A DNA stretch of 64,000 nucleotides from Halichondria panicea (taxonomy: Eukaryota; Porifera; Demospongiae; Suberitida; Halichondriidae): positions 3,787,502 through 3,851,501 of the forward strand of contig NC_087393.1 in assembly GCF_963675165.1 (NCBI RefSeq). Direction: 5' to 3'. The notes under the pieces are model-generated. The model saw only the letters and a program-made list of their open reading frames with translations, made no database searches and was not told where the DNA came from. The translations under genes and the position numbers were made by a program. Shown here piece by piece: positions 38,265-60,470 of the stretch; the stretch's first letter is position 1; every line of letters starts with the position of its first letter.

Positions 38265-40648
38265 CGGGAATATACAGTGTACACTATAGTACACAAGTGA
38301 AAAATGCAATATACATAATTATTAAGATAACACTTCATTTGTAGACACAAGTAATCTGCACAAATCATATCCATAAAATAATTCTAGAGATGGATGTACA
38401 GTTACACTGCATGTATAGTACATGTACATGTATACTGTAGGGGCATTATTTTCCTGCTTAGGCAAGCATATTATACAAACATAAATTTGGGTACGTTTAT
38501 GTATGTTTCATGAATGATTACAGAGCTACAATGTAGTAACGGAAAGAGGCTTACATCAAAAACCATAAGGTACAGTAATTACAATAAGTGCTAACCTCCC
38601 TAATCAACACACAAACACTCACCTGGTCTCAGGTTGAGCAGCCCAGAGGATAGAGATATCTGCAGCAGCTGTGCCAGCCTCTCCACACACTCTTCCATCT
38701 TCTCTGCCATCTCTTCCTCACCACGTTGCTTCCTGTGACTGTAATACCCAAGCAGGTTAGCAATCAGCATGGCCATTTCCTTTCCTGACATCTGGCAAGT
38801 TACCGGCTTTGAGAGTGAGAGAATACTTGAAAGTAGATCAGCATGTAATGACGTCAATATCATTTGCATGTCTTTATCGTCCAATGACTTTGAACTTGAG
38901 GTATCCATAGGTTCATCTCTTGAGTCTTTGCTGTAATTGGATCTAGATTTGGTCTTCTTAGCGATAGTCGGATAGTTTGGACAAAGAGGTGCCAAAACAC
39001 ACCACTGCATTAGTCCAGGTAGCAAACATTGTAGTACAGGCTTTGGGAATTCGGAATCAAAATTGATGGAATTGGAATGTACTAGTGGAAGTTCGGAAAT
39101 CTCCTTGTTGAGAAGAGGAGGCGGAGAGAGTAAGTTTGGATACGTTGATAGCCAATGGTAAACAATTTGAAGAATTCTGATTGGTGGATTAGGCTGTGAC
39201 GAATCCATGGTTGTTTTAGTGACTGCATAATTATACAGAAAGAAGAATTGTAATCTTGTAATCATGCATCCATATACATCTAGTGATATCATAATGGCTA
39301 TAGTGTACTGTAAATGTTCCAGTAGTTTACAGCCTGTTTGCAGGGAGGGTGCCACAAGCAGGTGAAAAGCTACCGGAAGTTTCTCTGCCCCTCTTCCAAA
39401 ACTCAGAGTCACAACCACACGCAATAGTACATGAATGTAATCGACAGTGAGCATAATACTAGGGGACACACCCACAATCATTGCTACTTAATTTGCTACC
39501 CAGCATTTCTTGCCATTTGGTGCAATCTAGCACAATACATGTAGTGCTATAAACATCCTACATGTATGATAATATTATGTAGCAAGTAGAATTTACTATA
39601 AAGCAATAATACATGCACGTACCACTGTAGAAGGAATGCAAGGATGTGAATGAGAGGGCCAGCTGCTGGGCAAAGTGCGGAGAGGTGGTGGGCAGTTGCA
39701 GTAATGGACCATATGCATCTGGGAGGAGTACGCAGAAATCATGGTAGAGAGTTTTCACAAGAGCAGCAGCCTCAGTGGGATGAAACTATAGTGGAAAAAG
39801 TGCATGCAATATTTGTACATATAGGACCTACATGTACATGTAACCAGTAAGTAAACTTAAAGAAGTAAGGTGTACATGTAGGGGTTTCTACAAGTAATTC
39901 ACATGCCACAACTACAGGAAATATACAGGTAGATAACCCCTTGCATTACATTGCATATGCATTGTAACAGCACATCACCTACCCAACTGGAAAACGGCTT
40001 AGGTTCAAGTGGGTACTACCCTTAAAACAAACAGCAGAGTGAGACTAGAGGCTCTGTGCGTACCCTCATCCAGATAGCAGTGCAGTTAGTTGAGGAAGTT
40101 GGGGCACTCTGCACTTGTGGCAAAGGACACCAGCCAAATTTGCCATTTGTGGGTGTGTCCTGCAGAGGAGGGTTGGGTATCAAACAACGCTCATGAATAC
40201 ATCACATAATTACAATGTATGTTGTGACAATAATAGAGTACACGACATGTACAGTAAAGTTGCTGAGCTGAAAACTCGGAGATATTTTTTACTTACAGTG
40301 CTGATCTTGAGGCTGCAAATATGGCGTCAAATATACAGTAGGACAACTCCATGCTCTGCTGGTTCTCTAACTGTCCGTGTATAGACAGCAACAACTGGAC
40401 CTCGTTAAAAGGCGGGAGGACAGGGGCACCCCCAGGGAAGATACTTGTAGCTCTTGGCTCAAACACAACAAAAAGGTCGACAAGTGTTTGAAGGTTGTCT
40501 CTGGTCAGCTGAGAGGGAGTGTCAGTGCTGGCTAGACAGGTGTTGAAATAACTGCGTGTGTACATGTGGAATTGGGTGTACATTTGTACTACATGTATAA
40601 ATTCTAAAGGGGGGAAATACGAGCACTGATACAGTGTATTTGTACACG

Positions 40649-49181: not shown

Positions 49182-49918
49182 TAGACTGGAAACCACGCCC
49201 CTTTCTTTAGGGAAAGAGACTGGCCAGGTGACTATCAACGACTCGTCTTCATTGCGTACTGAATTTTGCGGAAGTGGTTCAGGGAAAAGGGTGTGGTCAC
49301 CAGTGTTGCGGTTTAGTATACTTTGGCTAGATCTACTGTACTCTAGCATGTCTAGCTCTAGCTCTAGCAAGCTAGCTAGCTCAGCCACCTACCAAACTTA
49401 ATTTCAATCACAAGTCAACTGCTGCAAAACTATGTCCAAGTCTGGAGCTAGCTGTCACGTACCTGGATGTACCTAGCTCTTGTCCTGTCTGTGGCAATGA
49501 TACCGCTGTAATAGAAACTCAAATGTTGCTGGCAATAGGGCAAAGCAAAGGGACTTTCCATAAACCAGTTGGCAGAGAGACAAATATATCTCTGCATCTC
49601 TGCTACTTCTGTCTGTTATTTTTGCAGTGGCCTTGTAGCTATCCAGGTTATAGCAACTTTAGAATTGCTTCATTGGAGAAGTACTGATAGACAACTTATA
49701 TCCAAACAGCTAGCTAAGTAGACATACAATTTATACTGCAACTGTACAGCTAAAAATATTAATACTCACATAATAATAGCTTAGTGTGCAATATTGTGGT
49801 TTAGATATCTCCCACGCATTCATGCACACACTACATTCCAAGCATTCCGTTGGGACGAGTCGTGATAGTCACCTGGCCAGTCTCTTTCCCTAAAGAAAGG
49901 GGCGTGGTTTCCAGTCTA
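49182..49918. mobile_element. 737-bp MULE-like MITE, 9-bp target duplication
   Basis: Comparison with unit 1 (empty site near 39918) shows a clean insertion. Terminal inverted repeats are about 60 bp, starting TAGACTGGAAACCACGCCCC. The target GGAAATATA is duplicated on both sides (49173-49181 and 49919-49927). A 9-bp duplication with long terminal repeats is typical of Mutator-like elements. No transposase frame is present, so it is non-autonomous. It lies in an INTS15 copy 2 intron, so it inserted after the segmental duplication. Confidence 0.85.
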
Positions 49919-50197
49919 GGAAATATACAGGTAGATAACCCCTTGCATTACATTGCATTGTAACAGCACATCACCTACCCAACTGGAAAACGGCTTAGGT
50001 TCAAGTGGGTACTACCCTTAAAACAAACAGCAGAGTGAGACTAGAGGCTCTGTGCGTACCCTCATCCAGATAGCAGTGCAGTTAGTTGAGGAAGTTGGGG
50101 CACTCTGCACTCGTGGCAAAGGACACCAACCAAACTTGCCATTTGTGGGTGTGTCCTGCAGAGGAGGGTTGGGTATCAAACAACACTCATAAATACA

Positions 50198-50276
50198 CAC
50201 CCAGTTCAGAAACCTTTTCCCAGTGGCTTACTGGAATACCGGAAGAACCTAATCACTGCGGTACTGGGTTTAGGTT
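50198..50276 (+). repeat. KDZ element left terminal inverted repeat
   Basis: Matches the reverse complement of 59845-59922 over about 79 bp with two mismatches and one gap. Inner part includes ACTGGAATACCGGAAGAACC. Confidence 0.9.
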
Positions 50277-50343
50277 TCTACATAGCGTTTCATTAGAGAA
50301 AAATCGGCTGAGCTAGCCCTACCACCACCCTAGTTGGGCGGAG

Positions 50344-50390
50344 CCCGACCGTCCCTGACGGGAGGTCGGGGGACATGCTTATATAGGATT
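50344..50390 (+). promoter_or_regulatory. Hairpin plus TATA module, left (zinc-finger exon)
   Basis: CCCGACC at 50344-50350 pairs with GGTCGGG at 50364-50370, with an inner TCCC/GGGA stem. A TATA box (CTTATATAGG) follows about 10 bp downstream, 155 bp before the ATG at 50541. The same module, inverted and with different stem bases, precedes the RecQ gene. Confidence 0.55.
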
Positions 50391-50540
50391 TGTACTTGTG
50401 TGTTATGTAATACTGCTTGGAGCATCATGAATATAATCATTTTAAGTGGGTGTTAAACGCAATATGCACCGCACTGCACCACACTGGCTGGCACTGAACA
50501 ACATGACTTTGCTACTAAATAAATAAAGTACTGAGCAAGA

Positions 50541-50786
50541 ATGGCCCAAGTGCTACAATGTTTTGGATGTGGGGATGAGCTATCAAGGCCTGGTAACAGA
50601 AGAGCTCTTGATGGTCCAGCTGGAAAGGAAGTGTTGGACCTGTGGACAATGCTACTGGAGAATGAGGAAGAACAGATGTGTGCTGATGTCGACATTAACA
50701 GTATTGTAAATGGCAGTGATAAAAACAGATTGCCCAAAATGTGCAGGAAATGTTTCGGTAGATATAGCAGCTTTCTTGAAGCACAG
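50541..50786 (+). CDS. Zinc-finger (C2..C2) N-terminal exon
   Basis: An 82-codon exon starting at ATG 50541 and ending at a GT donor (GCACAG/gtaata). It has CFGCGDE near the start and MCRKCFGRYSSFLE at the end. That is a four-cysteine zinc-binding fold like the ZAD or KDZ-linked Cys clusters at protein N-termini in invertebrate transposon-derived families. No downstream plus-strand exon is evident before the opposing RecQ gene. It may splice over that gene to the KDZ transposase exons from 52516 onward, or be an orphan exon. The TATA module at 50380 fits its promoter. Confidence 0.5.
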
Positions 50787-50829
50787 GTAATAATGAAAAT
50801 AAAATTTGTAATTAGCTGAAAGAAGTAAC

Positions 50830-52271
50830 TAAGTCTTAGGTCACACTGTCCACATAAACATGACTTAGAACAAATATCACAGCACAAGCAATTGAAACCG
50901 AGATCAACATGTTTGTAATTGTCAATATTTCGGAAAAGACTATCCCTTCTACAATCTGTAGTGTTGAAATTTGAAGCATATTCTTTAATCTCATTATCAA
51001 CTTGATGGTAAATTCTTGCCTTCAAAAGGGTTACACGTGATGGTTTACCATCTCGACCTGCTCTACCAGTCTCTTGTACATAGCTACTGATATCGTCTGA
51101 CAGGCCAACATGAATGATTTACCGAATGTTGGGACAATCAACACCCATACCAAATTCCATAGTAGCTACAACAATGCGAAGATTGCCATCACCCTTAAAT
51201 AAACGAATGATTTCAGATTTATGGGCTGGATCAGTGACACTTGTAAACATGTCCACGAGGCGAAATTCAGGAAGATCAGGTGCATCATCAGGATTTGTGA
51301 ATGCAGCTCCAAGGTAATCCTTAAAGAAGAGGTACATGTCACCACACACCAAAAGAACGTCCATATATGATTGTTGTGGGAAACTTGTTTCTCTCGATTA
51401 CCAATTTCTGGGCCAAGTTTTGGAATGTCTCTGGTATACTTTTGAACAATCCAACAGCATAAATCAAATTTGGGATTACTGGGACTCTCGTAATGACAAA
51501 TGGGTTTCTTAGGCCAACAATACGAGAAATGAATGAAATGTCACTTCGGGTAGCTGTTGCTGTTAGCGCCATCACATGAACTGATGTTGGAATGAGGCTG
51601 CGCACTTCTCTAATTCTCAACAGCATTTGCCTGAAAGTCTCACCCCTGCAATAATATTATTGGTACACATGTTAATAATAAACGATGAGTCAAATACATA
51701 CCATTTCTTCACACAATGAGCTTCATCGATTATCAAAGCCTTGAGTCTATTAGCATACACATCTCCCCCCAGAAGTCTTCTCCAATGCTTCTTGCTGATG
51801 ATCATTTCAGGTGTAAAGAATACTAGCTGATACTTTCCGTGGAAGATCGCATCCATTGTAGCTGCATCAGACATCTCGCCCGAGACATATGTGCTAGAGA
51901 TGCCTTTAGAACAATAGATGGCTACCTATATAATAATAGAATAAAAGCATCCAGCTTAGAATGATCTAGTTATGTGTAAACAGCTCATATGCACATGTAC
52001 GTATAATTATATGTATGTTCTATCTAGCCTTACATACCTGATCATGAATGATGGCCAGCAGAGGACTGGAGTAACTACTACTACTACTACAATAGAATGA
52101 CCTTTCTCCTTCTCCAATATTTTGTCAAATGCTGCAGGCAAACAAGCATAGCAAAGGCTCTTTCCAAATCCAGTAGGCAATACAGCAAAGACATCTCTGT
52201 CTCTCAGAAAAGAAGTGACTACTTCCAAGCTCGTTAGCAGCTTCTGTGACAACTTGTGTAACTTTCTCCAT
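50830..52271 (-). pseudogene. RecQ-like DNA helicase of the transposon
   Basis: Superfamily 2 helicase motifs occur in order on the minus strand: Walker A FAVLPTGFGKSLCY (about 52180), a DEAH box IIDEAHCVKKW (about 51715), ALTATAT (51550), motif V VATMEFGMGVD (51160), motif VI VQETGRAGRDG (about 51060). A RecQ zinc domain follows (TTDCRRDSLF, CCDICSKSCLCGQC, about 50960-50840). Several short introns are likely. The start MEKVTQVV at 52271 is in a different frame from the Walker A block, so the N-terminal part is broken. A GTA-trinucleotide run gives a string of valines after motif I. TE-linked RecQ copies are numerous in sponges and cnidarians (general knowledge). It probably aids transposition intermediates (inference). 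Confidence 0.75.
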
Positions 52272-52379
52272 TTTGCTCAAGGCAGCTCCGCCCAGCTGCA
52301 CACCCACCTAGCTAAGTGGGTGTTAACCAACCACTTGCAATACTGCAATCTGATTGGGCTGCACTCCTCAGTGCAGCAG

Positions 52380-52444
52380 TACAAATCCTATATAAGCGTG
52401 TCACCCGGCCACCCGTTGGGAACGGGTGCCGGGCTCCGCCCAGC
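52380..52444 (-). promoter_or_regulatory. Hairpin plus TATA module, right (RecQ gene)
   Basis: On the minus strand, CCCGGCACCCGTT pairs with AACGGGTGGCCGGG (52433-52404). It is followed by GCTTATATAGG (TATA at about 52396-52389), about 120 bp before the RecQ start at 52271. It is homologous to the left module but its stem bases differ while pairing is kept. Confidence 0.55.
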
Positions 52445-52515
52445 TACCACCACCCTACAGCTACAGGTGACAGGTGACAGGATCCAGATATCTGAACTAG
52501 GCTGAGTTGGTCATC

Positions 52516-55500
52516 ATGGCTTGGAGAATGAAGATAAAACTTCCAAAGCTGCAAATAACTCAAAGGCAAACAGGTTCAGCTGTGAGAAGGTCTGTTACTC
52601 CCAGGGGTCTGCCAAAGGCCAATCATGAGACTGCCGGAAACAACAGTGAAAACAAGCACTGATCATGAAGCCAATTCCATCCTGATTGACACCAGCACTC
52701 TTGATCAGAATGAAGACGTGGAGAACCAGGGTGCACGAAGTTTGCATGAGATAAAACAAATTGCTAATGCTGAATCGTGGGGGAAAATTAGAGAGCGTCT
52801 CTTAAAGGCTGCTGTTGAAAGTTCTATTCCTCCACCTGGCCAGTCTTGCAGTGTGTGCGCTAACTGTGCACAGTACAGATGTGTTGATTGTGGGCCTACA
52901 ATATACTATTGTGAGGCTTGTCTCGGAGATTCTCATTTGATGCGCAACATTTTTCACTGTGCTGAAATCTGGGAGGTAAGGATTGATTTAATTGTTATGT
53001 TGAGCCTGGTTACTTTTACAGGATGAAATGTACAAGCCAGTAACTATCGAGGGACGGTGTATTGATGTCTCTCCTAATCACCAATGTTCCACAAAGAAGG
53101 CAGTACCTCTTTGCTGTATTGACACAAAAGGTTAATTATACCAGTGCCATTCATCCAGTTACTAGTAATTACAATGCAGGGATTGAGCACAGAATCCAGT
53201 TTTGGTGTTGTGAATGTGAGACTGTATGTGAAACAATGATACAAGCTCGTCTATGGCCAGCAAGCCCAAGATTCCCAGAAACAGCATTCACTTTTGAGCT
53301 ACTAGACTGGGCCGAGTCGCTTCTTCTGGAATGTCAAGTAGCACTTGGTGACTTTTGCAGGTCATTATACTTTAATTGCCCACATTTAGTGAACAAGGTG
53401 TGTGGTATGATTTGATGTGATACTTTCATTACACTGTTTTTGTTTCTGTTAGAGAAGAGACATTTATGCTTCAATGATCGACGCTTTTGAAGAATACAGG
53501 TGCTTTTTATTAACAGCTACACTGTAAAAAATAAAGTGCGGTGACTGCACTTTTTTCATTTTAATGCCGTATAGATAGCGGATTATTTTCGGAAAATTCT
53601 CATATTTTTCGTATTTAGAGCATTAATCGTATGCGCAATAGAATGTATGTTATCTAAGCTGTAGAATATGAATTAGGTAGAGTTCATACGAAACATTGCT
53701 ATAATTATGTTACATTATGATACGTGGTCACATTGCCTTTCTATGACATACTGACTGTATGTCAGTATATATAGGTATTTGAATGGAACTCCGGCATATG
53801 AGTTTCGTGAGCCCAAAGCTTGACAGTGGCAACATCTGTCCAGCTTGTCCAAAGGTAAGTTGAAAGTACTTGTATTTCTGATCACCTTTCCTTAGAATGA
53901 CGGAAGCCTTTTCATTTCAATGGATGCTTTGTTTGGTCTACCCCAAAAAAAGTCTGCTGGGAAGAGCCACAGGCCTCCACTTTATGACTCTCTATTTTTT
54001 AAAGATCAAAGCAGTGTTGATGAGTATGTGTCAAATTCTTCCGAGATTAGGGAACTACACAGAGTATGTTTATCATTAATAAATGCCAGTTACTGTATCA
54101 CACACAGACTTGTAATGATTTCCTTGCTGGAAGTGCATTGAGATCTGCAAATATATACTGTGCCCTCGATGAGACAGCTGTGTTTGGATCTGCCTGTAGA
54201 CATGAATTTCCCCTCATGTTTATCAATTTGAAGCATGGTGAAAGGTAAATGTACCTGAACTGTATTTTTCATGCAGCTCTATTTAAAGTCAATTTTCAGG
54301 TTGTCATATGCAAAGTGGTTGCTGCTAGAAATGGTTCAGAATTATCCCACTCAGAAACTTAATATCATGTATGATATTGCTTGCAAGCTCCATAAAAACT
54401 TATTGGTGAGTTGTACAGGATCAATTATGGAGGTACATATATCCATTTATTACGGTATTTAGAAATCAGAGTGTTCTGAAGTCTTAGAGAAAATTGACCT
54501 GTCAATTCCATCGTTTCATGCATTTGGTCACAATGCACAGTGCCAGGTAACGTGAACATTTCAACCCTTGTGTTATGGTGTGTGTATTCATTACTTACTA
54601 GGCGGCTTATGGACCTACTCGACGAATAGACTCTCAGATGGTGAGGTAATGGAACGTTTGTGGTCATACCTGCGACGGTTCTCTCGAATGACGAAGGAAA
54701 TGCGACCATCTCACCGGATTGATGTACTCACTCACGCATTGTTGTTTTATGGATCTAGAACGAAGCAAAAATTAGTATTATATAAATCATAATAATTGAT
54801 GTACGTTTATGCAGGGACTTTGCTGGCTAACCGCTGGAAAAAGGCAGAAGGGCTTAAACTTGCTGCGCAAAGTTCTTATGAGGAACTCACATCCTCTTTA
54901 CCTTGTACTTACGCGTATATAGCCTCGGTCTTCCTGCCGAGTTATAATTATTGGAACGGCAAACAAATTATACGAAAACTCGGCCTGGGACCCATAAAAT
55001 TATTAATGTCAGGTGTATTAATTATTCTTATGTATATAGAAACTGTCACTGAGGACAATGTGAAACAGTGGGTTGAAGAGGATAGAGTTCTTATCTCTTC
55101 CTGTGTTGTGGCGAATTCCGGACAAGCTGACTGGAAGATCACCTATGTTCAGCTGCTGCACACTTTGTGTACAGAAGATCTGTCAACACTGCAATATATA
55201 AGGTGGCTTGCAAGCATGTCTATTTTATGTACCTTTACAAAACTATAGACTCAAGAAACAACTAGAGGAATTTGAAAAAAAGCACGGGATAGCTGCTCGC
55301 TGGGATACCAGTGACCCCCAGTACATTACAGCAAGATCAATCGACTTGAAAGAGAAGCAGCACCAATTGCAGCTCTCACTTTGGTCTACTGTTTGTCGAA
55401 GACAGTTTCTTGTGAAAACAAAAGCAAAGTATGCAGGTATAATTATAGTGACCCCTATGACCTGCATGTACATAATTATATACAATGTGATTTCCCTTAT

Positions 55501-56086
55501 ACATACATACACGTAGATGGTCAAAAGATTGCTAAAAGACTTTGCAAAGGAATTTCCAAAGAAACGAAAAAGGCCAATAAGATTCTCTCTGAACACCACC
55601 ACATTTCTCTACAATTGGACCCATCATACTCAAAGCCAAACATCTCACAAGTTCTTTCTCCAGACAGCACTGCATGTGTGGCAGCAAAGATTTGATGGAG
55701 CCCTTGTATCTACACATATGCCACAGTGTGTAAAACGTGATATCATCGAAGCATACTTGTTGAAAGAACGATGCAACAAAGAGCAGTGTCTCCTGAAAAT
55801 CGACATGACGAATGTCATTAGCTACTGGCAAGAAAAGGCTTCATGCATCACAGCTCTCATTCTTGAAACAAGTGGTACAGATGCTTTTAAAGTAGGCTGT
55901 GTGTGTCTTTTGAAGAAATGTTTGGTTGAAGTTGAACATAACTGTTCCAGAGTGACCGTACTTTTTTCTAATATTCTCAAAAACTCTGAAAGTGTTGATT
56001 CAGACTCAGAGAATGATAGTTCGGACTCAGAGGATGATCGTTCGGACTCAGAGAATGATCGTTCAGACATTGATGTAGATGATTAG
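52516..56086 (+). pseudogene. KDZ transposase
   Basis: Multi-exon transposase of the Kyakuja-Dileera-Zisupton type. Candidate starts are 52516 (MAWRMKIKLPKL, short frame) or 52625. N-terminal Cys clusters (CSVCANCAQYRCVDCGPTIY, CEACLGDSH) come first. Next are FWCCECETV, RLWPASPRFPETAFTFELLD and CPACPK (exon ending about 53854). The catalytic core has the first Asp in FISMDALFGLPQKKSAGKS (about 53924), the second in LNIMYDIACK (about 54370) and GHNAQCQAAYGPTRRI. The Glu lies in DGEVMERLWSYLRRF (about 54650), with MRPSHRIDVL after it. The C-terminus ends in repeats of SDSEND at 56086. Exon 53022 onward hits a stop unless the frame shifts near 53131, and other joins are uncertain, so I treat it as probably inactive. 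Exon edges such as 52975/53022 and 53854/53896 have good GT-AG signals. Confidence 0.75.
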
Positions 56087-56568
56087 ATTATTTCTATGCA
56101 ATCGTTGCATGGTTGTTCCACTTCATGATCACATGCACGTCACTTGCAAATAATATGCTGTTGTCAGAATGTTTGGTATGAATGCACATAATTATACAAT
56201 AGTTTGCATTCTTCAATGAAGTGATCAACGTTCTTTAATTATTATACATAATTATGTGTAATTATAAAAAATACACACTGTATAATTATTATAGTTTTAT
56301 GATGCGATAGTTTGGACCTATAGAGTGTAATAGTATACTGCCATGCAATAATGCTGTTAAATGCTTGCAGCTGATTATGCTGTACTTTGTGTCTCTTAAT
56401 TATTCCATGTCATGCATGTGCATATTAGTAGCTATCAAGTAACCATTTAATCACAATAATTATGACTTCACATTCATGGCATATAATTATTTCTAATAGA
56501 TGTAGCATAATAATATTCATGCATGCAGTACCATATATACAGTGTCAACATCACTATAACAGTACATA
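56087..56568. other. AT-rich spacer inside the KDZ element
   Basis: No gene recognised; very AT-rich with many ATAATTAT motifs. It separates the convergent 3' ends of the transposase (+) and accessory gene (-). Confidence 0.5.
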
Positions 56569-58094
56569 CTAATTAGTACACTGGCTTGAACAAAACCATT
56601 TGCGTTTCTGGAACGACTCATCGGGGCTAATACCCACACACTTCTTGTGGAACCACATTTTACAACTATCACATCTAATAATGGGTTTACTTCGATTATT
56701 TGGCTGCTTGCAATGGCAGTACAACTCAACCGTAACAATTTTTCGATAGAGGTTAGATGCAGGTACTCTCCTTTGACGTGTTTGAGGGAAACAATCTAGG
56801 TTCCCTTTAATAAAACCATCCTTCAAGTGTGTACGCATCAACTCCACATTTCTATGTGCTAAAAGTGGATCAGTGCTATGTACCAATTCCGTGGCATACG
56901 CAATGGCAAACACACCGCAATCACTACAATTTAGCTGCTTTTGCACGTTCATTAAGCAAAACGTAGTAGACCTTGTTGAGCAACGCCAGAAACTACAAAT
57001 TTGTTCAATTGTAGCAGAGCTGATGTCACTGTACATACTGTCGCACACTTTCAATGTACTGGTATCGCACCACACATTACTAACTGTTACCCAATGAGAC
57101 TTGCCAACGAGGATGATCTGTACAAAAGGTGTTCCCTCGTCAATGATTTTGAATGAGATAGCCCTTTGCTCAAAGAGGACATTTTACCAGCCGCTCAACT
57201 TATTGTCGCACTGTGATTTCAGCATAATTTGTGCGGCATTGATAATCCGATCATTCAACCACTCTACACTCGACTCCAAGCAGACTTTGTCCTCCTGTTG
57301 TAACGTGAACATTGGTGATTTAATCCATGCTTTCATACAAGGCATTACAGGACTGTCGCTGATTTCAATAGTTGATTGGTTTTTGCTGGTAGTATCTGTC
57401 TTAGCTTGGGAAGCTTGGAGAGCTTTTGTGAGGTTTTTTTTTATTTTTTTTTGCTTTCTTATCCACTGGTTGTGAATCAATCTCAATTGATTGTATGTTT
57501 TCATGAGATTGTACATGGTTTGCATGAGAGAGCAAATCAGAATCAGAATCGGATGATATCTCCGACATGACCCTAGATCGTTTCGGCTTGACTGAAGACT
57601 TGAGTGGCTCGGGGTGACTGCGTTTTGGCTTTGATTGTGACAAGAGGCCAACAGGGAAAGGTGGTGGACTGGCTGCAAAAGGCAAATCACCATGGTTACG
57701 TGGGAATCCCGGGATACTTGGACAGGGGGTACATATATATATAGGCATCGACAATTATATTATGGTTCATTATTAACATAATTATAGACTATAATTATAT
57801 ATATACATGCATGCATGCAGTGAGATTTTATATACTGGAAGCATGCAGTGAGATTTTATATACTGGAAGGATAATAATTATGATGATGCATGCCTGCCAT
57901 GCATGCAGTGCATGCTGACTCACCAACAGTGACAACAGCATGAAGCCAATTTATTACTTCTGGTGTGAATGCTTGTAACACATCTGATGTTCCCACAATT
58001 TGTGTGTACTCCATCCTAAGAGCAAAACCAAATCCACGAAAGCCAAGTTCATCAAGTTCATCAAACTGTAAATATTAATAAGAGTCACTGACAC

Positions 58095-58560
58095 TGGAGC
58101 ATCTAAAACCTATTATATATACAGGACTGGGGCACCTAAAACCTTACTGCAGTGCTGAACTGGGGCACCTAAAAACCTTACCGCAGTACTGGACTGGGGC
58201 ACCTAAAACCTTATTGCAGTGCTGAACTGGGGCACCTAAAACCTTATTGCAGTGCTGAACTGGGGCACCTAAAACCTTATTGTAGTACTTGACTGGGGCA
58301 CCTAAAACCTTATTGCGCAGTACTGCATGCATGGACTGGGGTATGGACTGGGATATGGCCTAAACCTTATATATATATATATATACTGCAGTACTGGATT
58401 GGGGCGCCTAAATTCTTACTGCAGTATGCATAAACTGGACTGCATGGGGCACCTAAAACCTTATAATTATACTGGAGTACATGCATGGGGCTGCATGGGG
58501 AACCTAAAACCTTACTACATTCAGTACAGGACTGGGGCACCTATAGAACCTACTGTATAT
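58095..58560. repeat. ~33-bp minisatellite inside the KDZ element
   Basis: About a dozen copies of a unit with the core CTGGGGCACCTAAAACCTTA. They are regular (33-34 bp) up to about 58320 and then more degenerate. It lies in an intron of the accessory gene. Confidence 0.85.
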
Positions 58561-58632
58561 AACAGAACAACTTGGCCGCATGATTCTCTGAGCTGCATGC
58601 GCATGCACCAGACGAGTATATAACTGCGTAAT

Positions 58633-58828
58633 TATAGGGGGTAAATTTGGCGATTTGGCGAATCAAAGTGAGGGTCGACAAAATTAAAAATTGCCTAGAT
58701 ACGCAGTCCCAGTATAATTTTATCGCACAAAGTTATAATGATCTCATGATCGTCAAATTAAGAATCGGCAATAATACTTCAATCGCCAAACAATATAATT
58801 ATATAGGCTCCCCAAATCACCCGCTATA
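58633..58828. repeat. MITE family C copy inside the KDZ element
   Basis: About 196 bp between TATAGGGGGTAAATTTGGCG and the inverse CCAAATCACCCGCTATA. The ends resemble family B (TATAGCGGGTAATTT), suggesting a common source. Nested in the transposon, so it inserted later or came with it. Confidence 0.55.
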
Positions 58829-59844
58829 TACGGTATGGTTTTATAATTAGGTGCTCTGCGTGGTTTAAATATAATTATAATGTGCTGTATGCGTATACAC
58901 GTATATATAATTAACATACCAGCTTCTGAATCTTCCCAAAACGTTTCTCAGCTTCTTTTAGGACACCTTTATGGGAGAGTCGCTCATTCGTTTCAGAACG
59001 TTCTCTCAGAGCTTGTTTCTCATCGCTAGACAAGTTATTATAAGCTTCACTGGCTTCCTTGTTAAAAACACCTGGATTTCCAGCGGTTGCAATGGCACTC
59101 TTTCCACCTGTGTGCATGCATGCAGAACAATAGAGTATCTTGACAATGTATGTGTTTGTATGTGGATGTCGTATACATGCATGTATATATGTCTAGACCA
59201 TGTATGCATGACGCTAATATATATATACCTTCAGATTTTCCGTACTCTTTTAGAAATTGGTGCCATGGCCCGCTTGACTTCTTCGGAATGTTGTACTGAT
59301 CAGAGGGACCAGATTCATCCGCATCAATGCCACCATGCTTAATTTTCATGTTTTCTCGGCGTATCCAGTTCTGTTCAACATCCATGAATCAATTCATCAA
59401 AAATACTACGTACTTCACTCAGTGAAAAAATGGTAATAAATCTACCAGTCCTATAGATCTGCATAGTACATGATATAGTAAAAATAAATGTACCCTTATC
59501 TGCTTCTCGTTGAGGCCTGTACGGTCCTTTGCTATTTCCAGGAATGGTTGCTTTTTTTGCCCCAACCTGTCATACCCTTTCGGTACAGCGACAGCAATAT
59601 TGTAGTTGTTGAAGTGGAGAAAGGGGCACATTCAGTTCTTACAGCCTCCATAGAAATAGTCACAGGTAAAACCGACAATGAGTGCAGTGAAAGAAAGGCA
59701 CCTTGATGGTTATATCTACATGTGATTGCTTAAAAGTCTTCTTTTAAGTAAGGGGAGGGGCTGGTCTACATGCAGAACTTAGCCTCGATCCCATGCAGCC
59801 CTTTCTCAATTGAGTGAGAGCGGCCTGGAATCGAGGCTATTGAG

Positions 59845-59922
59845 AACCTAAACCAGTACTGCAGTGATTAGGTTCTTCCGGTATTCCAGTAAGCCACTGG
59901 GAAAAGGTTTCCGAACTGGGTG
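59845..59922 (-). repeat. KDZ element right terminal inverted repeat
   Basis: Inverse of 50198-50276, ending GAACTGGGTG at 59922 and followed by the AAATACA target duplicate. Confidence 0.9.
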
Positions 59923-60470
59923 AAATACATCACATAATTACAATGTATGTTGTGACAATAATATTATTATTGAGTACACGACATGTACAGTATAAAGTTG
60001 CTGAGCTGAAAACTCGAAGATATTTTTTACTTACAGTGCTGATCTTGAGGCTGCAAATATGGCGTCAAATATACAGTAGGACAACTCCATGCTCTGCTGG
60101 TTCTCTAACTGTCCGTGTATAGACAGCAACAACTGGACCTCGTTAAAAGGCGGGAGGACAGGGGCACCCCCAGGGAAGATACTTGTAGCTCTTGGCTCAA
60201 ACACAACAAAAAGGTCGACAAGTGTTTGAAGGTTGTCTCTGGTCAGCAGAGAGGGAGTGTCAGTGCTGGCTAGACAGGTGTTGAAATAACTGCGTGTGTA
60301 CATGTGGAATCGGGTGTACATTTGTACTACATGTATAAATTCTAAAGGGGGGAAATATGAGCACTGATACAGTGTATTTGTACACGCATACACACACACA
60401 CACACACACACACCTCTGTAGCAGTCTCAGCACAATATTGCAGGATGCCGGGAAATCGAGATTGGAGATA

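Follow-up and report, generated by a model that had tools for sequence, protein, structure and literature searches.

What kind of element fills positions 50198-59922 of the 64,000-nucleotide stretch of Halichondria panicea analysed here (contig NC_087393.1, positions 3,787,502 to 3,851,501; hereafter the window), and which of the genes between its ends are its own? A sequence-only reading of the window had described a large KDZ transposon that looked like a single machine for transposition, equipped with a helicase, a SUMO-type protease and a chromatin reader. The explanation that we prefer, and consider rather probable as a whole, is a two-gene KDZ transposon, Kyakuja-like and now broken, whose accessory protein has a Ulp1-PHD tail and into which an AcademH-like element was inserted later. 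The anatomy (ends, duplications and gene order, a convergent second gene shared by three KDZ families, the complete set of catalytic residues, and the nested position of the helicase) was observed, and we hold it with high confidence.

Bounds, transposase and copies of the KDZ element

The transposon copy, which belongs to a family that we call A, lies on the forward strand and measures 9725 bp with the nested element counted in. Its left terminal inverted repeat (50198-50270, forward strand) starts with CACCCAG and its right one (59850-59922, reverse strand) finishes with CTGGGTG. The two arms were 96% complementary over 73 nt without gaps, and 93% over 89 nt with gaps. AAATACA was present on both flanks, as the left (50191-50197) and right (59923-59929) target site duplications, and the empty target site in the adjoining tandem unit (40170-40205, forward strand) reads ...CATGAATACATCACATAAT.... 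The bounded insertion of the sequence-only reading, with inverted ends, a 7-bp duplication and an empty site, was confirmed.

As that reading had proposed, the 79-bp end sequence was searched against the host genome, which comprises 131 Mb in 39 contigs. The 12 matches paired into six elements of 9725, 8331, 7582, 7631, 2000, and 13888 bp. A 7-bp duplication stood directly at the ends in four of the six; in the 13.9-kb copy (on contig C4) it appeared only after four extra bases, and the flanks of the 2.0-kb copy showed no target duplication. This shortest copy (L004, G000:C17:2331725-2333724) is internally deleted. Transposase and second-gene matches were found in all five long copies. Private small changes of more than 1 bp among the long copies amounted to 34 insertions and 32 deletions, and 17 of the 34 insertions were tandem duplications.

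The transposase gene (52516-56086, forward strand) has 14 exons by copy comparison, and its frames are broken in the window copy. Exons 2-3 contain the cysteine-cluster region (approximately 53022-53397, forward strand), with Pfam scores of 43.8 bits for CxC2 (cut-off 27) and 27.1 bits for CxC1 (cut-off 26.9). The KDZ transposase core (54099-54564, forward strand) gave two PF18758 rows of 31.4 and 33.6 bits (cut-off 26.6). The combination of PF18758 and a CxC cluster, both above their cut-offs, places the element in the KDZ superfamily, and the profile search supported the earlier claim of a KDZ transposase with a Cys cluster. The window element is a broken, relic copy; no long copy has an intact transposase, so that activity of family A is putative only.

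Perfect inverted ends of 56 bp, 625 bp apart, delimit a unit directly left of the element (window positions 49182-49918).

The helicase and its nested element

The helicase had been counted among the genes of the KDZ element. Alignment of the copies showed an extra block at 50333-52460 in the window copy, which was absent from all five other family A copies. The block corresponds to an element with TAG...CTA ends (50331-52446, reverse strand), flanked by the 9-bp duplication CCACCACCC at 50322-50330 and 52447-52455. Searched alone, it matched at least 21 further near-full-length places besides the window with 94-100% identity; the best 40 of 331 candidates were scored, and the counts are a lower bound. 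In all five of these other copies whose ends were read, 9-bp duplications and TAG...CTA ends were again present. Since the helicase is missing from the other copies and has its own ends and duplications, it belongs to a separate element, inserted into this one KDZ copy. It is clear from these results, together with the further places in the genome, that the helicase is not KDZ cargo, and the phrase 'its own helicase' has to be withdrawn.

The helicase gene of the nested element runs in several frames, through introns, frame breaks or both; this holds for the window as well as for a near-identical copy on contig C11. In the window, a DEAD match reached 25.6 bits, just below the cut-off of 26; the other pieces were also below cut-off, and the label 'RecQ-like' comes from motifs read by eye. 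Two longer relatives (L048 and L049) are 99.8% alike over 4.5 kb and encode a helicase convergent with a DUF6589 gene (1.7e-39). For L049, Helicase_C scored 48 bits (cut-off 23.5).

According to PMC10045372, AcademH elements have a helicase gene, and their target duplications measure 9 or 10 bp. The nested element resembles them by its helicase and its 9-bp duplications; it differs in that the copy is only 2.1 kb long with helicase pieces only, and in that the relatives L048 and L049 add a DUF6589 gene. An AcademH-like identity fits these features, and the DUF6589 gene of the relatives is a candidate Academ transposase at most. A Mutator-like origin had been considered on the 9-bp duplications alone and was dropped, because AcademH elements likewise make duplications of 9 or 10 bp. 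As an observation on the host genome, an AcademH-like element with a RecQ-like helicase occupies many near-identical places in it.

A conserved second gene and its Ulp1-PHD tail

The second gene (56569-59651, reverse strand) is convergent with the transposase. It has five exons, at about 59651-59495, 59370-59229, 59107-58921, 58065-57924, and 57716-56569. The junctions are accurate to no better than one or two bases, and that before the final exon is uncertain. The first three exons (58921-59651, reverse strand) encode a homeodomain-like and an HMG-box-like part with a profile match to the second genes of two further KDZ families. The Ulp1/C48 catalytic region (56830-57270, reverse strand, limits approximate) contains H, D, Q, and C, and is interrupted by a stop in the window copy; among the other four long copies, none has second-gene exons free of insertions and deletions. 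The PHD finger (56587-56718, reverse strand) scored 32 bits against Pfam PHD (cut-off 24). A Pfam search of the longer family A second-gene protein listed no C48 row. The claim that one bounded element holds a KDZ transposase and a second gene with these four parts was upheld. With regard to cargo, the earlier reading was right for the second gene, which occurs in all five long copies, and wrong for the helicase, which occurs in none of the other five. About ten 33-bp repeats were also seen in the third intron of the second gene (window 58093-58527), which separates exons 3 and 4, and they had matches in the other long copies.

The two further KDZ families in the genome are B (for example L017 and L019), with ends CACCCC..., and C (the stretch L033, L018, and L037 on contig C9), with ends CACCCGC.... 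Of the six family B copies read, four had a duplication once the right end was extended by one base, which is G in three of them and A in L017. Only 7 bp fitted in three of the four, the copy on C8 allowed 7 or 8, and the remaining two of the six showed none. The one family C copy read had a 7-bp duplication. L017 (G000:C17:3855500-3865000) lies outside the window in a paralogous tandem unit, 13 bp off the target site of the window element, and its duplication is AAACAAC compared with AAATACA. It is of a different KDZ family from the window element, and the closeness of the insertion points may reflect a preferred site or chance.

A convergent second gene was present at 24 of the 27 KDZ loci (5 A, 16 B, and 3 C), which were merged by hand from 53 PF18758 search rows; the allowed distance was 13 kb for A, in view of the insertions within its C4 copy, and 6 kb for the other two families. 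The remaining three loci were low-scoring rows (25.5-29.5 bits, one below cut-off). Conversely, 7 of 31 second-gene loci had no KDZ partner, namely the deleted A copy, two loci with B ends, L015, L022, and two C-type pieces.

With the family B second gene, the Pfam matches to Homeodomain (24.1 bits, cut-off 22.9) and HMG_box_2 (23.9 bits, cut-off 22.4) were both above threshold; the family C gene stayed below both cut-offs. In an hhalign comparison, for which exons were joined by eye, the profile of family A (three rows) matched that of families B and C (two rows) with a probability of 96.2, an E-value of 2.7e-9, and a score of 63.1; none of 100 column shuffles reached this score (maximum 23.1). 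Scanning the genome with the family B second gene gave 18 B loci and, weakly, three C loci (E 0.26-0.31). With the family C query, the only matches were the C loci themselves, a diverged locus on C13, a single exon on C5, and nine B places (E about 0.22). On the second-gene side of family C, L018:1693-1920 (forward strand) also holds a GTF2I-like repeat (Pfam 35 bits, cut-off 27).

Among 11 tails from the genome, two of them near-identical, H60-W61, D78, Q113, and C119-G120 were common to all, so that the His-Asp-Gln-Cys catalytic set of peptidase C48 (Ulp1/SENP) is present. The PHD cysteines were nearly invariant among distantly related carriers. The tail profile matched SENP1 (E about 1e-9) and the PHD fingers of DIDO1, PHF2, TAF3, SPP1, and others, which are presumably H3K4me3 readers. 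One further relative of gene 2, L015, has homeodomain-like, HMG-like, Ulp1, and PHD parts; since all four parts occur there, the fusion looks older than the six-copy family A.

In the genome search for the tail, the best 107 of 247 candidates were scored, and their rows were merged to 98 loci. Within this sample the tail was seen in family A only among the KDZ families, and 21 of the 22 other KDZ loci had no tail match within 15 kb. The exception was a KDZ locus on C6 (two rows), whose tail, L020, adjoins a DDE_1 gene; the Ulp1 and DDE_1 open reading frames (ORFs) are separate and on one strand, and the two were not demonstrated to be one element. One way to refute a coherent cargo was its occurrence mainly outside the KDZ ends. 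This was not the case for the homeodomain/HMG part, as 24 of 31 second-gene loci were paired with a KDZ locus, and it was the case for the Ulp1-PHD part, whose loci outside family A are counted below.

Several tails were associated with other transposons. At L007 the tail shared an ORF with a Mutator-like transposase; the transposase scored 48.3 bits (cut-off 26.5), and the PHD and C48 matches of this locus were below cut-off. At L009 it stood on a P-element-like protein, with Tnp_P_element at 25.8 bits (cut-off 23) and C48 at 28.3 bits (cut-off 20.7), and RNase H and PHD below cut-off. This locus holds a 1148-amino-acid open frame (L009:4562-8005, reverse strand) with a P-element-type helix-turn-helix and Ulp1, PHD being below cut-off. 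L013 is a Ginger-like locus with the tail near an integrase (rve 40.6 bits, cut-off 32.6), and at L014 the integrase match was below cut-off. At L010:2382-5323, inverted repeats of 398 bp (97.7%) enclose a psq-type helix-turn-helix gene and a Ulp1-PHD gene, with no other frame of at least 180 amino acids.

For the 93 tails outside family A, the distance to transposase matches was taken from the complete sets of 150 rve rows, 26 Mutator rows, and 46 PF21787 rows. Within 6 kb, 8 had a Mutator row, 10 an rve row, and 2 a PF21787 row (one locus having both rve and PF21787), and 74 had none; loci moved at random gave means of about 0.3, 1.6, and 0.5, respectively. Most carriers of the tail are thus unassigned. 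In a tree of the 11 tails, the three of the Mutator group (98) and the three of the Ginger group (100) clustered, the other nodes being at 48-87 apart from the near-identical pair. The labels in this tree denote neighbouring domains, except that the assignment of L016 and L011 follows only from the similarity of their tails. Recent swapping of tails between transposon groups was not borne out by the tree; because the Mutator-group and Ginger-group tails each cluster, the acquisitions look old. A tail search of viral contigs with one pattern found no relative.

Placement, alternatives and meaning

The 7-bp duplications of families A, B, and C and their CA..TG termini agree with Kyakuja, with the detail that the right-terminal G of family B lies beyond the last T in three of the four copies with a duplication, and L017 has A. 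According to the available text of Kojima 2025 (PMC12730594), two fungal (Laccaria) Kyakuja families are reported without terminal inverted repeats. The element shares with Kyakuja, as far as described there, the KDZ transposase group, the 7-bp duplications, the 5'-CA..TG-3' ends, and an accessory chromatin-related gene (TET/JBP in fungi). It differs by its long inverted repeats and by an accessory gene of the homeodomain/HMG and Ulp1-PHD type rather than TET/JBP. Judged by these sequences, the ends fit Kyakuja, the long inverted repeats excepted.

Ulp1-type proteases on transposons are themselves established. In the accessible portion of PMC2836005, Ginger1 has Ulp1 at the transposase C-terminus, with PHD in one Hydra family, and a related tail stands beside the integrase at L013; Ginger1 differs by its Gypsy-integrase-type transposase, and its tail is on the transposase, whereas here it is on the accessory protein. 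Mutator elements and Cryptons (PMC2836005, PMC3212892, in their available text) are likewise DNA transposons with an Ulp1-type protease, and some CryptonS encode a separate C48 protein; their transposases or recombinases are different, and these parts of the sources describe no homeodomain/HMG partner. In the open-licence literature we found no paper that links a KDZ transposon or Zisupton with Ulp1.

Several observations weigh against the two-gene, Kyakuja-like interpretation. In each of the five long copies, the transposase frame is broken by one or more small insertions or deletions. Arms of 73 nt at 96% do not agree with a Kyakuja element lacking terminal inverted repeats. The Ulp1 match in the window (Pfam row at about 56830-57045) reached only 16.5 bits (cut-off 20.7), and of the 23 rows that the C48 model returned for the whole genome, none belonged to the window family. 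Taken alone, gene 2 of family A reached no Pfam cut-off for homeodomain or HMG. A tblastn search of the family B and C stretches with it returned only one row at chance level (E 0.72), the profiles that did relate the families depend on the exons joined by eye, and the family B query had two weak matches elsewhere (C1:7414121, E 0.24; C17:19701, E 0.56). Finally, 93 of the 98 tail loci were found outside family A ends, so the tail is not KDZ-specific.

Four other explanations have to be compared with this one. The single machine of the sequence-only reading has next to no chance of being correct: in the window copy, the 79-bp ends do enclose helicase, protease, and PHD finger, but the helicase block is independent by its absence from the other five copies, its ends and duplications, and its many other places. 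It is also very improbable that gene 2 is a host gene which the element carries and which contributes nothing to the life cycle of KDZ transposons. Its relatives L015 and L022 had no KDZ transposase match by tblastn in the stretches searched, and both are among the seven unpaired loci, but three of these seven are the deleted A copy and the two with family B ends, and a convergent gene 2 recurs across three KDZ families. A Zisupton or Dileera type in place of Kyakuja seems unlikely for family A. It would suit the long inverted repeats, which the available part of PMC12730594 does not report for fungal Kyakuja, and the present placement was made from ends and duplications; on the other side, the literature reports duplications of 8 bp for Zisupton and for one Dileera family, compared with 7 bp and CA..TG ends in families A to C.

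The alternative with the most weight, although still somewhat unlikely, concerns the tail, which could be a passive exon captured by chance from the host or a foreign transposon and unused in transposition. The restriction of the tail to family A among the KDZ families, as seen in the best 107 of 247 candidates, the broken state of the family A copies, and the many tail loci outside them would agree with this. Invariant catalytic residues and nearly invariant PHD cysteines in distantly related carriers speak for a used module instead, as does L015, in which the fusion appears older than family A. We therefore retain the broken two-gene KDZ transposon with a later AcademH-like insertion. In this element the tail is on a conserved, probably dedicated, predicted DNA-binding second gene and not on the transposase; it was probably gained by the accessory protein and directed against SUMO-dependent silencing.

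SUMO-dependent chromatin repression partly silences transposons in animal genomes. The following mechanism is tentative at each step. The cysteine-cluster KDZ transposase of gene 1 would cut and join the ends. The homeodomain-like and HMG-box-like modules of gene 2 probably bind and bend the element ends or the target DNA, by which the accessory protein could bring the transposase to the element ends. The PHD finger, of a type found in H3K4me3 readers, would place the complex on active chromatin, and the Ulp1-type protease may free nearby silencing or repair proteins of SUMO.

It is possible, though we would not yet expect it, that the Ulp1-PHD module is a tool common to several unrelated groups of DNA transposons in one genome, steering them to active chromatin and removing SUMO-dependent silencing. 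The carriers would then be Mutator-like and P-like transposase ORFs, loci beside a Ginger-like integrase and a psq-type gene, and the KDZ accessory protein. The same protease-plus-reader tail on unrelated elements would suggest a repeated counter-measure to silencing, comparable to the TET/JBP genes on unrelated fungal transposons described in the available text of PMC12730594. For KDZ transposition itself, the two-gene plan offers a testable accessory factor.

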